From NCBI RefSeq assembly GCF_003315485.1, contig NZ_QNSE01000004.1, positions 62,001 through 126,000 on the forward strand: DNA of 64,000 bases, read 5' to 3'. The stretch comes from Marinomonas rhizomae. Its GTDB lineage: Bacteria > Pseudomonadota > Gammaproteobacteria > Pseudomonadales > Marinomonadaceae. Below, piece after piece: positions 4,233 to 11,360 of the stretch (positions are counted from its first letter, which is position 1; every line of letters begins with the position of its first letter). The notes below the pieces were generated by a model. That model ran no database searches. It saw only the letters and a program-made list of their open reading frames with translations, and was not told the DNA's origin. The position numbers and the translations under genes were made by a program.

Positions 4233-5312
4233 ATGAGCCGAGTATATAATTTTTGTTCAGGTCCAGCAGCGCTTCCCGAGGCGGTGTTAAAAAAAGCGCA
4301 GGCTGAAATGTTAGATTGGCATGGCGCTGGTGTTTCTGTTATGGAAATGAGTCATCGTAGTTCTGAGTTTATGTCTATTCTTGCCTCGGCTAAGGCGCGT
4401 TTGTCACGTTTGATGGATATTAGCGATGACTATGAAATTTTATTTGTTCAGGGTGGTGCGTCTACTCTATTTGCTCAAATTCCAGCGAATTTAGTGAACG
4501 GCTTTGATTCTGCCTGCTTTTTAGATACTGGTGCTTGGTCTTCAAAGGCGATAAAAGAAGCTAGGAGATACACTAACGTAAAGGTAGTTGGGTCTTCAAA
4601 AGAACAGAATTACACTACGGTCCCTGATTTTTCTACTTTAGAACTGGATGAGAATGCGGCCTATTTGCACCTTTGTCCAAACGAAACTATTGGCGGTCTA
4701 GAGTTTTCTGGGTTGCCGGAAACAAATTTGCCGATTGTTGCAGATCTTTCTTCAACGATTCTGTCTCGCAAAATTGACGTGAGCAAGTACGGCTTGATTT
4801 ACGCTGGCGCACAGAAAAATGTGGGCCCTGCTGGTGTAGTTATTTGTATTGTTCGCAAGGATTTACTGGCACGTTGCAGTGATGAATTGCCATCTATTTG
4901 GAATTTCGCGAATTTGGCGAAAAACGACTCCATGATTAACACACCGCCAACCTTTGCGATTTATCTGGCCGATTTGGTGTTCGAGTGGTTGGAAGAGCAA
5001 GGTGGTGTTGAGGCGATTGAAGCGATTAATATTCGTAAAGCGCAAGCTTTATATGACTTCATTGATGCTAGCGATTTTTACTCAAACCCTGTTGATCCTG
5101 ACTATCGATCTCGTATGAATGTGCCGTTTATTTTGGCAGATGAGTCCCTTGAATCGCTTTTTTTGCAGGAGTCTGTGGCTGCTGGTTTGCGTACTTTGGC
5201 GGGGCACCGTTCTGTTGGTGGTATGCGTGCAAGTATATATAACGCAATGCCGTTGGAAGGTGTTGAGGCTTTGATTGATTTTATGCGTGGTTTTGAAAAG
5301 CGTCACGGATAA
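4233..5312 (+). CDS. serC: Phosphoserine aminotransferase SerC
   Basis: This 359-residue class V aminotransferase converts 3-phosphohydroxypyruvate to phosphoserine, and also acts in the PLP-synthesis branch (family knowledge). The N-terminus YNFCSGPAALPEAVL is the family signature. The PLP lysine sits in YAGAQKNVGPAGV near residue 197, and GHRSVGGMRASIYNA near the C-terminus is the phosphate-binding segment. It opens a serC-pheA-tyrA/aroA-cmk run with short gaps. pdxJ, also of vitamin B6 synthesis, is at 34 kb. In pseudomonads hisC often sits between pheA and tyrA; here it is absent. Confidence 0.97.
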   Translation: MSRVYNFCSGPAALPEAVLKKAQAEMLDWHGAGVSVMEMSHRSSEFMSILASAKARLSRLMDISDDYEILFVQGGASTLFAQIPANLVNGFDSACFLDTGAWSSKAIKEARRYTNVKVVGSSKEQNYTTVPDFSTLELDENAAYLHLCPNETIGGLEFSGLPETNLPIVADLSSTILSRKIDVSKYGLIYAGAQKNVGPAGVVICIVRKDLLARCSDELPSIWNFANLAKNDSMINTPPTFAIYLADLVFEWLEEQGGVEAIEAINIRKAQALYDFIDASDFYSNPVDPDYRSRMNVPFILADESLESLFLQESVAAGLRTLAGHRSVGGMRASIYNAMPLEGVEALIDFMRGFEKRHG

Positions 5313-5352: not shown

Positions 5353-6474
5353 ATGTCAAATTCTAAACAAGCAGTGCCGAGTACATTGCCTTTATTGCGT
5401 GATCGTATTGATTCGATTGACTCGCAAATACAATTACTAATCAACGAACGCGCAACGTGCGCTCAAAAAGTAGCTGAAGTTAAGTTGGCTGATCAGGGCG
5501 ATGATGCGGTAGTCTTTTACCGTCCTGAACGCGAGGCTCAAGTTTTGCGTAAGGTAATGGAACGAAATGAAGGGCCTTTGGGTAATGAAGAAATGGCGAA
5601 GATCTTTCGTCAGGTGATGTCTTCATGTCTAGCGCTTGAAAAGCCAATGCGCATCGCATTTCTTGGGCCAGAAGGCACTTTTACGCAGCAAGCTGCGTTG
5701 AAGCATTTTGGTAAATCAATTGTTAGTGCGCCAATGGCCGCTATCGATGAAGTATTTCGTGAGGTTGAGTCTGGCGCAGCTAATTATGGTGTGGTGCCAG
5801 TTGAAAATTCAACAGAAGGTGTTGTTAATCATACCTTAGACAGTTTTCGAGACTCGCGTCTGAAAATTTGTGGGGAAGTGGAAGAGCGTATTCATCATCA
5901 TCTATTGGTGAGTCCTAATATTAGTGCCGAAGACGTAACTCATATTTATTCACATCAGCAATCTTTAGCGCAGTGTCGTGCTTGGTTGGATCGTTATTGG
6001 CCACATGCTGAGCGTATTGCGGTGAGTTCGAATGCCGAGGCGGCTCGCCTCGCGGCTGAGGCAGGTCGCAGTGGTCGTGCTATTGCTGCGATTGCGGGTG
6101 AAATAGCCTGTGAGTTGTACGGCTTGCTAAAGGTATCTTCTAATATTGAAGATCGTCCAGATAATACGACTCGCTTTTTGATTGTTGGTAATCAAGAGGT
6201 TCCACCAAGTGGTAAAGATAAGACATCGTTGCTAATTAGCGCAAAAAACGAGCCTGGTGCTTTGTATAGGCTGCTTGAGGCTTTCGAGCGTCATGGTGTT
6301 GATATGACGCGTTTAGAGACTCGTCCTTCTTTAATGAGTCGTTGGGGTTATATATTTTATATTGATTTCGTCGGTCATTATCTAGATGAAGGATGTTGTG
6401 CTGTAATTGATGAGTTACGTGAGCGTGCATCGGAAGTGAAGGTGTTGGGTTCCTATCCTGTAGCTGTGCTTTAG
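5353..6474 (+). CDS. pheA: Bifunctional chorismate mutase / prephenate dehydratase (P-protein)
   Basis: This 373-residue protein routes chorismate to phenylpyruvate for phenylalanine. The AroQ chorismate mutase helices span about residues 10-95 (LRDRIDSIDSQIQLLINER). The prephenate dehydratase domain runs about 100-275 (FLGPEGTFTQQAA, VPVENSTEGVV and TTRFLIVG with its catalytic TRF). The C-terminal ACT domain (about 285-365) has SLLISAKNEPGALYRLL and ETRPS in place of the usual ESRPS allosteric motif. Thr for Ser is conservative, so feedback control by phenylalanine is probably kept. Confidence 0.96.
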   Translation: MSNSKQAVPSTLPLLRDRIDSIDSQIQLLINERATCAQKVAEVKLADQGDDAVVFYRPEREAQVLRKVMERNEGPLGNEEMAKIFRQVMSSCLALEKPMRIAFLGPEGTFTQQAALKHFGKSIVSAPMAAIDEVFREVESGAANYGVVPVENSTEGVVNHTLDSFRDSRLKICGEVEERIHHHLLVSPNISAEDVTHIYSHQQSLAQCRAWLDRYWPHAERIAVSSNAEAARLAAEAGRSGRAIAAIAGEIACELYGLLKVSSNIEDRPDNTTRFLIVGNQEVPPSGKDKTSLLISAKNEPGALYRLLEAFERHGVDMTRLETRPSLMSRWGYIFYIDFVGHYLDEGCCAVIDELRERASEVKVLGSYPVAVL

Positions 6475-6496: not shown

Positions 6497-8743
6497 TTGA
6501 CTGGTGAAAATGGTTTTCAGGCGTCGGCTAATGTGACGTCTCAAGAGAAAAAGAAATTTGGCAATGTCATGATCATTGGTCTTGGCATGATAGGTGGCTC
6601 ATTTGCGAAAGCATTAAAAGAGCGCGGCTTGGCTACATTATATGCTGTTGATCGTCGAGAAGGGGAGTTGGCGCTAGGTGTTTCAACGGGGGTGATTGAT
6701 TTCCCTGCTGAAATGTCTGCTGAATATGTCCCTAAAATGGATGTTATCATTCTTGCTACTCCAGTAAGGGCGATGGAGTCTGTTCTGACTGACCTTAAAC
6801 CTTTTTTATCTGAGCATACATTGGTGACAGATGTAGGGTCGACCAAAGGGAGTGTGGTAGAGGCGGTTCGTCAGGTTTTTGGGTGTGTGCCAACTAACTT
6901 TATTCCAGGTCATCCTATTGCTGGGGCGGAAAAGAGTGGAGTGTTGGCATCCAATTCGCTGCTTTTTGAAAAGCACATGGCGATAGTGACGCCTCTATCT
7001 GATAGCAATCCTGTCTTGTTAGATCGTCTTCATCGTATTTGGCGTGCTGTTGGGGCAGATGTCGTGAGTATGGATGTTAATCATCATGATCACGTGTTGG
7101 CTTCTTCAAGTCACTTGCCACATTTGCTTGCTTATACTCTAGTTGATGCGTTGGCTAATGGCGAACGTAGTCAAGATATTTTTAAATTCGCGGCGGGTGG
7201 TTTCCGCGATTTTACTCGCATTGCGTCTAGTGATCCTGTGATGTGGCGCGATGTTTTTATGGCAAATAAAGATGCGACTTTGGCAACGCTAGATCACTTT
7301 ACTGATCGCCTTGCTGATATGCGTGCTGCAATAGAGCAAGGTGATGGTGCCAGCATGTTTGGTGTTTTTACTCGTGCTAAGTCTGCGCGAGATCATTTTC
7401 TTCGATTGTTAGAGCAGCGTACAATTGGTTCTGTCAAAGAAGTTCGGCCGGTTTCAGTCTCTGTTTTACCTGCTTCTGCTATTAAAGGTGATATTTCTTT
7501 ATTGGGTGACAAATCTTTGTCACATAAAGTCATTACCATAGCGGCGCTTTCAGAGGGTGTAAGTGAAATAAAGAACGTTGATTTGACGGGTGATGTCCGT
7601 ATTACAATTCAAGCTTTTCGGGATATGGGGGTGGTGATTGAGGAGGTGTCTTCTGATTGCTTACGTGTCCATGGTGTTGGTCTTCGTGGTTTAAAGGCGC
7701 CCATTGCGCCAATTAATGTCCATCAGTCTCGCGAAAGTCTGTATTTGTTGTTGCCTGTTTTAGCAGGACAGTCATTTTCTGTGTCAGTTGTGGCAGAGGA
7801 GAAGTTGCTAAATCAGTCGATGGGTGACTTGTTTTCCTTAGTGCGCAAGATGGGTGGGAGTGTGGTCTCTGACGTCGCCGATTGCCTGCCTGTTAGTCTT
7901 GTTCCGGGTGAGTCGCTGAATGTATGTATTGATCTGCAGACTGGTTCTGAGCGGTTACGTATGTCGGCTTTTTTAGCTGCTTTGTATTCTCCGGCTGAAG
8001 GAAGCGTCGTGACAGAGTTGACCGGATTGTCTCATTGTGAAGTGTTGCTGCGCCATTTTGGTGTGAGTATTTTAGATCAAGCTGACGGTTTTAAAGTTGT
8101 TTCCGCACCTTTAGTGGGTACGAGTATTGTATTGTCTGGTGATGAATATGAAATGGCTTGGTTGGTGTTGCTGGCGAACTTGTTGCCAGGTTCTGAATTG
8201 CTCATTGATAATGCGGGTTTAGATTCTGTGTCATATGCCTTTTCATCCTTTCTGAAGTCGATAGGTGCGGACGTCACTATTCCTGATTTGGGTGGTTCGG
8301 GTTTGTATGAGGGGAGTGTTCGAGCAGCTTTTGCTGAGCTTAACTCTTTTATTTTATCGTCAGAACAGAGTTACCAGTTTAGGAGCGAGTTGCCTTTGCT
8401 GTGTGTTGCTGCGGCTTATGCAAAAGGTGAAAGCTGCATTCATGGCGTTGGCTCTTTGCCTTATTATTGTGAAGATAGAGTGTTGGCGCTGGTAGATGCG
8501 CTTAAGCAGATGAAGATTGCCTGTGTTTATGAGAATGGTGACTTGCTTATTCAGGGTGGTCTTCCATCGGGTGGTGAGTTGGATTGTGCTGGTGATGATA
8601 AATTAGCGCTTGCTATGTTGGCATTAGGGGCGCGAAGTCAGTCGATTACAAAAGTGAATGATTGCCAAAAATTATTAGAAGAATTTAACGAGTTGGAGAG
8701 TGTCACTATGCAGTTAGGTTTTTACTGCACTGTGGCGCAATAG
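6497..8743 (+). CDS. tyrA-aroA: Prephenate dehydrogenase fused to a degenerate EPSP synthase domain
   Basis: 748 residues, read from a TTG start because no ATG precedes the domain. Residues about 22-310 are TyrA: NAD motif [34 protein letters not shown] and [14 protein letters not shown], all intact, so prephenate dehydrogenase activity is expected. Residues about 325-748 align with EPSP synthase (GDKSLSH 337-343, [21 protein letters not shown]), but catalytic motifs are eroded. GNSGTSMR is HQSRESLY (409-416), KRPM is lost, the catalytic Asp of DEFP is Ser630, RVKESDR is PYYCEDR (655-661) and GDHR is GDDK (699-702). The frame is open throughout, so it is a protein-level degeneration and not a pseudogene by frameshift. 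Confidence 0.93.
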
Positions 8744-8762: not shown

Positions 8763-9446
8763 ATGATCAACCAAGGCCCAGTTATTACGATTGATGGTCC
8801 AAGTGGTGCAGGTAAAGGCACTGTAAGTCAATTAATCGCAGAAAGGCTGGGATGGCACATACTAGATAGTGGTGCGTTATATCGACTGCTTGCACTTGCT
8901 GTATCGCATCACGGCATGTCTTCAGATGATGTTGAGACGTTAAAAGTCTTGGCTGAGCATCTGGACATACAGTTTGTGCAGTCAGAAGAAGGTAAAGTTG
9001 AAATTATTCTAGAGGGCGAGATCGTTACTCAGGCTATTCGAACTGAAGAAGTGGGTAATTGTGCGTCTAAATTGGCGGCTATTCCAGAAGTTCGCGACGG
9101 TTTGTTACTTCGTCAGCGGGCTTTTTCGCAAGCGCCTGGTTTGGTGGCGGATGGTCGTGATATGGGGACGATCGTGTTTCCTTCTGCGCAGATTAAAGTA
9201 TTCTTAACGGCTTCGGCAGAAGAGCGGGCGCAGCGTCGCTTGCAGCAATTGCAGCAAAAAGGCGAAGCTGTTAATCTAGATGAACTAGTTAAAACGATTA
9301 AAGAGAGAGACGAGCGTGATGCTAATCGAGCTGTTGCTCCTCTTGTGCCTGCCGCAGGCGCTTTAGTTATAGACAGTACAGATTTAACCATAGAGCAGGT
9401 TGTCGAGATGATTTTTGCTGAAACAGCAAAAGCGGGTCTCGTATAA
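8763..9446 (+). CDS. cmk: Cytidylate kinase
   Basis: This 227-residue P-loop NMP kinase phosphorylates CMP and dCMP. The Walker A motif GPSGAGKGT is near residues 11-19, followed by the substrate segment [25 protein letters not shown] and the C-terminal [13 protein letters not shown] (lid and arginines) are intact. Family length is about 225. The gene directly precedes rpsA, the usual gammaproteobacterial neighbour, and follows tyrA-aroA by 19 bases with a plausible Shine-Dalgarno (AAGAGGAA). Confidence 0.97.
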
Positions 9447-9627: not shown

Positions 9628-11310
9628 ATGACTCAAAGCTTCGCAGAACTGTTTGAAGAAAGCCTTTTAACCGTCGAAATGGCGCCAGGCTCAATTGTTA
9701 CTGGTATCGTTGTTGATATTGACAGCGAATGGGTAACTGTTCATGCAGGTCTTAAATCTGAAGGCGTAATTCCTCGTTCTCAGTTCCTAACGGATAGTGG
9801 TGAGTTTAACTTAAACATCGGTGACGAAGTTAAAGTTGCACTTGACGCTGTTGAAGATGGTTTCGGTGAGACTAAATTGTCTCGTGAAAAAGCTAAGCGT
9901 GCAGAGACTTGGTCTGTGCTTGAAAAAGCTTACGAAGAAAATGCCATCGTTCACGGTGTGATTAACGGTAAGGTCAAAGGTGGCTTCACTGTTGATATCG
10001 CTAACATCCGTGCTTTCTTACCTGGTTCTTTGGTAGATGTTCGCCCAATCCGCGACACGTCTCACTTGGAAGGTGTGGATCTAGAGTTCAAACTTATCAA
10101 GCTTGATCAAAAACGTAACAACGTTGTTGTATCTCGTCGTGCCGTTATGGAAGCGACTAACAGCGCTGAACGCGAAACATTGCTTGCTTCTCTTGAAGAG
10201 GGTCAAGAAGTTAAAGGTATCGTTAAGAACCTTACTGACTACGGTGCTTTCGTTGATCTTGGTGGTGTTGATGGTCTTCTTCACATCACTGACATGGCTT
10301 GGAAACGCATTAAGCACCCAAGCGAAATCATTGCTGTTGGCGATGAAATCGACGTTAAAGTTCTTAAGTTTGACCGCGAGCGTAACCGTGTGTCTCTAGG
10401 TCTTAAGCAGTTGGGTGAAGATCCATGGGTTGCTATCAAAGCTCGTTACCCAGAAAACACTAAAGTAACGGCTAAAGTTACTAACTTGACTGATTACGGT
10501 TGCTTCGCTGAGCTTGAAGAAGGCGTAGAAGGTCTAGTACACGTTTCTGAAATGGATTGGACTAACAAAAACATTCACCCATCTAAAGTTGTTCAGATTG
10601 GTGATGAAGTTGAAGTTATGGTTCTTGATATTGACGAAGAGCGTCGTCGTATTTCTTTGGGTATCAAGCAGTGCACAATGAACCCATGGGAAGAATTTGC
10701 TACCTCTTTCAACAAAGGCGACAAAATCTCTGGCGCAATCAAGTCTATCACTGACTTTGGTGTGTTCATTGGTCTTGACGGTGGTATCGACGGTCTTGTT
10801 CACCTATCTGACCTATCTTGGGACGAAACTGGTGAAGATGCAGTACGTCAATACAAGAAAGGCGATATGCTAGAAACAGTTGTATTGTCTATCGATGCTG
10901 AGCGCGAGCGTATTTCTCTAGGTGTTAAGCAGCTAGAAGAAGATCCGTTCCTTGCTTTCGTTGCTGAAAATGACAAAGGCACTATCGTTAACGGTACTGT
11001 CTCTGAAGTTGATGCGAAAGGTGCTGTAGTTGTTCTTGCTGAAGGTGTTGAAGCTACTTTGAAAGTATCTGAAATCAGCCGCGAGCGTATCGAAGATGCA
11101 ACTACTGCATTGAAAGAAGGTGATAAAGTAGAAGCTGCGATCATTAATGTTGATCGTAAAGCGCGTACTATCACTCTTTCTATCAAGCAGAAAGATGCTA
11201 CTGAAGAGAAAGCAGCGTTGAAATCTCATTCTGAGAAGCAACAAGCAGAAACTAATGGTCCAACCACTATCGGTGATTTGATCAAAGCACAACTAGAAAA
11301 CCAAAACTAA
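9628..11310 (+). CDS. rpsA: 30S ribosomal protein S1
   Basis: 560 residues with six S1/OB-fold repeats, close to the E. coli length of 557. Repeats are recognisable by GxVxxITDYGxFVxLxGxxGLxHxSD-type segments, for example [15 protein letters not shown] and [17 protein letters not shown]1 unfolds mRNA and docks it on the 30S subunit. The gene has strong codon bias and few rare codons, as expected for high expression. The ihfB gene that usually follows rpsA in gammaproteobacteria is not there. A strong terminator closes the unit. Confidence 0.98.
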
Positions 11311-11331: not shown

Positions 11332-11360
11332 AAAAAGCGGACTTAGGTCCGCTTTTTTTT
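11332..11360 (+). terminator. rpsA rho-independent terminator
   Basis: The stem GCGGAC (11337-11342) pairs with GTCCGC (11347-11352) around the loop TTAG, flanked by AAAAA on the left and eight T on the right. It lies 21 bases past the rpsA stop. Confidence 0.92.

Follow-up and report, generated by a model that had tools for sequence, protein, structure and literature searches.

A full-length EPSP synthase-fold domain that has lost its active site, carried on TyrA and kept under selection in Marinomonas

The fusion gene and the state of its EPSP synthase half

The window, that is the whole stretch of DNA analysed here, comprises 64,000 nucleotides of Marinomonas rhizomae (contig NZ_QNSE01000004.1, positions 62,001 to 126,000 of the forward strand). 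It carries a tyrA-aroA fusion gene in which prephenate dehydrogenase (TyrA) is followed by a domain with the fold of 5-enolpyruvylshikimate-3-phosphate (EPSP) synthase, the product of aroA. Judged from its residues, the EPSP synthase half is almost certainly non-catalytic, which leaves TyrA as the one half able to catalyse a reaction. The domain is open in all 48 Marinomonas genomes, with neither a stop nor a truncation. Two prephenate dehydrogenase domains cover residues 36-290 of the fusion protein (both PDH_N and PDH_C are matched in Pfam), the NAD motif GLGMIGGS is present, and PDB relatives of this half include 4wji and 2g5c. Pfam EPSP_synthase covers residues 326-726 (2.6e-35). Six Pfam families matched the protein (E up to 0.001), and no ACT domain was among them. 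The EPSP synthase fold is retained in the predicted structure (VIA-align 2 of Foldseek's top 1000 PDB chains). The AlphaFold model has a predicted local distance difference test (pLDDT) score below 50 at residues 296-317, in the linker region, and a predicted template modelling score (pTM) of 0.59. The window protein scores 934.7 bits against NF011381 (bifunctional TyrA-AroA; cut-off 902) and 131.7 bits against TIGR01356 (AroA), below the cut-off of 287.25. The NF011381 cut-off is passed by 20 of the 48 Marinomonas fusions (the window protein and 19 others) and failed by 28, so a dead domain would be named as bifunctional or active in those that pass.

Twenty ligand residues of Escherichia coli EPSP synthase, a list which we take to represent its active site, were mapped onto an alignment that combined the fusions of the 48 Marinomonas genomes with further fusions from the order (Pseudomonadales in GTDB) and with separate AroA proteins; S197 has no aligned counterpart in the fused class and hence was not placed. 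The window domain keeps 4 of the 20 residues and the Marinomonas fusions keep 3-8, compared with 15 in each of 14 intact fusions and 14 in the near-intact fusion L105. Fifteen are also kept in each of the eight tabulated fused domains from genomes without E. coli-type AroA. The residues missing from intact fusions are mostly class differences. The equivalents of K340, E341 and H385 are missing in every Marinomonas fusion, and those of R124, Q171, T97, R386 and D313 are lost in 38, 44, 34, 37 and 30 of the 48, respectively. Old K22 (window K339) survives in 46 and old R344 (window R661) in 47. The losses common to all 48 genomes suggest that EPSP synthase activity ended before Marinomonas radiated. 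The first-pass annotation of the window had proposed an active site lost with fold and reading frame kept, and every substitution it named is present in the alignments (Table 1). The RPM motif, which it gave as lost, has exchanged its Arg for Q440 and still has its Met. Agreement among all 48 genomes rules out an artefact or decay confined to one genome, and the absence of a stop in any of them rules out a frameshift pseudogene.

The gene order in the window is gyrA, serC, pheA, tyrA-aroA, cmk, rpsA, with products recognised from the open reading frames (ORFs). Of 34 matching loci in named genomes, 30 belong to Marinomonas, including every close one. A cmk match lies 15-22 bases 3' of the fusion at all 30 named Marinomonas loci. 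A terminator-like site, by consensus match only, is located 3' of rpsA (11332-11357).

Table 1. Features of the fusion gene and its neighbourhood (positions within the window)
Feature	Position	Strand	Residues and basis
tyrA-aroA fusion	6497-8743	+	748 amino acids (aa), TTG start; ORF list
TyrA half, prephenate dehydrogenase, apparently intact	6497..7411	+	1-305; Pfam PDH_N, PDH_C
Linker between TyrA and EPSP domain	7412..7474	+	306-326; partly low model confidence
EPSP synthase-fold domain without active site	7475..8740	+	327-748
Constrained part 1 of EPSP domain	7475..7807	+	327-437; dN/dS 0.05-0.07
Former GNSGTSMR ligand loop, now HQSRESLY	7721..7744	+	409-416; alignment
Relaxed part of EPSP domain	7808..8581	+	438-695; dN/dS 0.09-0.24, below 1
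Former Arg124 of RPM, now Gln440	7814..7816	+	440; alignment
Former Asp313, now Ser630	8384..8386	+	630; alignment
Former RVKESDR, now PYYCEDR	8459..8479	+	655-661; alignment
Constrained part 2 of EPSP domain	8582..8740	+	696-748; dN/dS 0.06-0.07
Former His385/Arg386 region, now AGDDK	8588..8602	+	698-702; alignment, DHR to DDK at 700-702
serC, first gene of the serC-pheA-tyrA/aroA-cmk-rpsA cluster	4233..5312	+	ORF; product recognised
pheA (chorismate mutase / prephenate dehydratase)	5353..6474	+	ORF; product recognised
cmk	8763..9446	+	ORF; product recognised; begins 19 bases past the fusion stop codon
rpsA	9628..11310	+	ORF; product recognised

Selection on the fused domain

Over 34 pairs with synonymous divergence (dS) in TyrA of 0.3-1.2, the domain has a median ratio of nonsynonymous to synonymous divergence (dN/dS) of 0.10, compared with 0.03-0.04 in TyrA and 0.02-0.025 in the separate AroA. 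The AroA values are based on 46 of the 48 genomes, those with a broken gene (G027) or none found (G041) being left out. The single nearest Marinomonas pair gives 0.09, 0.04 and 0.06, respectively, and a maximum-likelihood codon model over all 48 puts dN/dS at 0.096 in the domain and at 0.025 in TyrA. The range for the TyrA half overall is 0.03-0.05. Under simulated neutral evolution, a domain has a 0.8% chance of being stop-free at 0.125 substitutions per site, yet all 48 Marinomonas domains are open. The first-pass annotation had described the domain as kept in frame, and purifying selection across Marinomonas (dN/dS about 0.10) agrees with this; as in a pseudoenzyme, the domain is preserved by selection after the loss of catalysis. 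The ratio of domain dN to TyrA dN is 3.5 in Marinomonas, 3.25 in genus g37 and 1.6 in g46, against a median of 0.82 over all pairs in the control genus g16, which has a high-scoring fusion (30 of 40 genomes used). This contrast in rate is not uniform, the ratio being 43 in two g16 pairs with almost no change in TyrA and 0.68 in the nearest g37 pair. With the dN ratio raised relative to g16 and dN/dS at about 0.10, constraint on the domain is relaxed yet far from absent.

Constraint is unevenly placed. Across 35 pairs from 22 genomes, dN/dS is 0.05-0.07 in residues 327-437 and 696-748 and 0.09-0.24 in the middle of the EPSP domain, with 0.054 in the TyrA NAD domain and 0.019 in the other TyrA half. 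Scaled to the TyrA NAD domain, residues 696-748 are constrained to the same degree as their counterparts in the control genus, and residues 601-650 are about eight times looser. At 200 positions conserved in intact fusions (13 intact rows), mean entropy within Marinomonas is 1.71 for the 18 pocket positions and 1.10 for the other 182 (permutation p 0.005). Several residues are near-invariant in Marinomonas and occur in none of 15 intact or near-intact fusions (a set that includes near-intact L105), examples being N360, N407, P420, W555, R629, P655 and E659. The picture is that of a retained scaffold around an abandoned cleft.

The separate aroA and recurrence across the order

The window genome has three EPSP-family genes, namely an E. 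coli-type aroA, murA and the window domain. A second aroA of functional type had been predicted by the first-pass annotation, which named the lack of any other aroA as evidence against its reading; the genome search found an intact copy at G000:C11:147601-148824 (478 bits, compared with 124 bits for the window domain in the same genome), and its product keeps 20 of the 20 active-site residues. An intact E. coli-type aroA is present in 46 of the 48 Marinomonas genomes (468-485 bits). The fused domain is found in all 48 (118-200 bits, except in G016, where it appears as two weaker pieces), and a second search recovered the full-length fusion in every genome. In the draft assembly of G027 (L145), the separate aroA is split by a frameshift at about 85,011-85,017 of G027:C45, which could reflect either faulty sequencing or a genuine break. 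No E. coli-type aroA was found in the 77% complete assembly of G041. MurA is normally essential; G019, a Marinomonas assembly 99% complete, has just two EPSP-family matches, AroA and the fusion, with no match for MurA, perhaps because of a gap in the assembly or data.

E. coli-type AroA occurs in 79 of 390 genomes of the order, 61 of them outside Marinomonas. A full-length fusion is present in 20 of these 61, and 13 of the 20 score below 983 bits, as do 47 of the 48 Marinomonas fusions. Among genomes without E. coli-type AroA, 256 of 311 were examined by score and residues were tabulated for eight; 158 of the 256 have a full-length, stop-free fusion (8/16, 42/80, 52/80 and 56/80 in the four subsets), and the lowest score is 983. 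In this sample of the order, decay at the level of score is seen only beside an E. coli-type aroA; elsewhere the domain has shrunk or been lost. Bit score is a proxy for decay, since L108, L110 and L111 exceed 983 despite lost residues. Residue decay is found in 9 of 11 tabulated fusions of family f37, and in f6 two fusions are severely and five mildly decayed. All eight genomes of g37 have the fusion and a second AroA. In a TyrA tree (13 of the 48 Marinomonas rows; several deep forks poorly supported), f37, f6 and Marinomonas are placed apart, and decayed G347 is sister to near-intact G218. These placements indicate that decay has occurred several times. In f44 (g44; L146-L151), TyrA carries a shrunken C-terminal remnant of about 310 aa that aligns with the intact domain at an hhalign probability of 98.9% and lacks a large stretch of the first EPSP lobe; TyrA of G119 and G198 has no such domain (14 intact rows were used in these comparisons). 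In all three domain-less genomes inspected, cmk lies directly behind tyrA, from which it follows that clean removal of the domain is possible.

In an AroA tree of 44 rows (three without one of four motifs; L256 and L259 left out for motif mismatch), Marinomonas, f37, f8, f44 and f47 each form a group, and the rows of f6 and f16 are scattered. The second gene has therefore long been established in some families, and in others it may have moved. G054, G103 and G147 combine an intact-looking fusion with an E. coli-type AroA, possibly an early stage of replacement. In fused domains of f37 and f6 (L105, L111-L116, L118, L120 and L121), the residue that corresponds to E. coli Gly96 is Ala; a PDB title names a glyphosate-insensitive mutant, G96A, with this exchange.

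Why the domain is kept, and comparison with known systems

The dead domain is best read as a structural or tuning module for TyrA, to which we give a probability of roughly 0.55. The E. coli-type aroA, whose presence and intactness are observed, would have become responsible for the sixth shikimate-pathway step, and the fused copy would then have lost its catalytic residues before Marinomonas radiated, as the losses shared by all 48 genomes suggest. The domain would have been retained because TyrA depends on it physically. The two ends of the fold (327-437 and 696-748) would serve as the scaffold or contact that keeps TyrA stable, assembled or tuned, with the catalytic cleft free to drift. We infer that the benefit goes to TyrA and is structural, not ligand-dependent. 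This is favoured because a truncation arises easily by mutation and relatives lack the domain, yet none of the 48 Marinomonas fusions is truncated, and because selection guards the scaffold and not the cleft. Of the roles suggested in the first-pass annotation, stabilising or tuning TyrA fits the selection data, and we favour it over the binding of shikimate intermediates.

Several observations weigh against this reading. The structure model, with its low-confidence linker and pTM of 0.59, gives no firm contact between TyrA and the domain. Related TyrA proteins do without the domain, including those of G119 and G198, which are nested among decayed lineages. The pairwise dN/dS of about 0.10 is rough at high dS and drawn from non-independent pairs, and a value of 0.1 could also be explained by selection against a misfolding tail. 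Within the supposed scaffold, residues 327-380 are about three times looser than in an intact genus when scaled to the TyrA NAD domain. In g37, residues 327-437 are constrained and 696-748 are not, and 17 pocket positions are still conserved (dN/dS 0.03); decay in g37 may be younger, which would explain its different pattern.

The dead EPSP synthase might instead bind a small ligand, such as tyrosine or a pathway intermediate, and control TyrA in the manner of ACT domains. Regulatory extensions are known on TyrA (Song et al. 2005, PMC1173090), K339 and R661 survive, and several residues are newly fixed. The remaining positions of the old cleft, however, rank with those formerly conserved sites that change fastest, which makes one genus-wide ligand at the old site improbable, and Pfam lists no ACT domain. 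The idea that shikimate intermediates are bound at the old site in Marinomonas did not hold up, as the site now varies more across the genus than the rest of the once-conserved positions, and this variability rules out ligand binding there as the reason for retention. A ligand elsewhere on the domain is possible. Allosteric control as a whole is an unlikely explanation, though the strongest of the alternatives. The domain could also be useless baggage that stays because truncating it would disturb how cmk and rpsA are translated, with its sequence kept only against misfolding. The short distance to cmk and the clean losses in relatives speak for this; the domain-less relatives that have cmk directly behind tyrA, the lack of truncation throughout Marinomonas, and the uneven constraint and newly fixed residues, which would not be expected of baggage, make it improbable. 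Slightly less probable still is a docking module that holds TyrA near the separate AroA, PheA or Cmk: in its favour, parts of the domain away from the pocket are constrained and the operon neighbourhood is conserved, but the separate aroA is at another locus. A weak or altered EPSP synthase has very little to recommend it. The fold is retained and NF011381 accepts the protein, but K340, E341 and H385 are missing throughout the genus, the five further residues are lost in 30-44 of the 48 fusions, and a complete AroA is encoded elsewhere in the genome; by sequence, the lost catalytic residues and this second enzyme appear to rule out a still-active EPSP synthase.

For the order as a whole, we put forward more tentatively, at somewhat under even odds, that a fused EPSP synthase repeatedly becomes a non-catalytic module needed by TyrA once a second aroA is present. 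If true, the order would offer a natural series running from both copies intact, through mild decay, to dead but selected and full length (Marinomonas), shrunken (f44) and lost. The Marinomonas fusion is a clean natural experiment in the turning of a fused enzyme into a pseudoenzyme, in which the second gene has been identified, the loss can be dated to before the radiation of one genus, and intact sister fusions serve as controls. What was lost and what was kept can be read residue by residue.

The window protein shares domain order, neighbourhood and ancestry with the TyrA-AroA fusion of NF011381 / PRK14806 (TyrA-AroF in Song et al.), differing in that its AroA half lacks an active site. The EPSP synthase of Acinetobacter baumannii (PDB 5bs5 and 5buf) differs in that its aligned 5bs5 sequence has the motifs that are altered in the window protein. 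The gene order of the window is much like that described for the group by Song et al. (2005). The ACT-bearing TyrA of Bacillus and Xanthomonas likewise has a non-catalytic C-terminal extension (PMC1173090), but ACT is an unrelated small ligand-binding domain and none is listed in the window fusion. In Nostoc and Anabaena, TyrA carries a degraded AroQ extension (PMC1173090), likewise a former and apparently inactive enzyme domain, although the enzyme is a different one (chorismate mutase). A full-length, selected, genus-wide dead domain with recurrence was not found in the open-licence literature searched. The kind of event is already known from Pseudomonas syringae (Song et al. 2005, PMC1173090), in which the fused AroF domain of TyrA has lost about 200 residues, a stand-alone gene has been acquired, and the remnant, according to those authors, might be reused as a regulatory domain. 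Both cases combine a disabled fused EPSP synthase half with the gain of a stand-alone gene. The new gene of P. syringae resembles that of Agrobacterium, whereas the second gene of Marinomonas is of the E. coli type; the E. coli type is thus not the sole possible replacement. The domain is truncated in P. syringae and full length across Marinomonas, and it is this full-length retention across a genus, with measured selection and recurrence, that is new.
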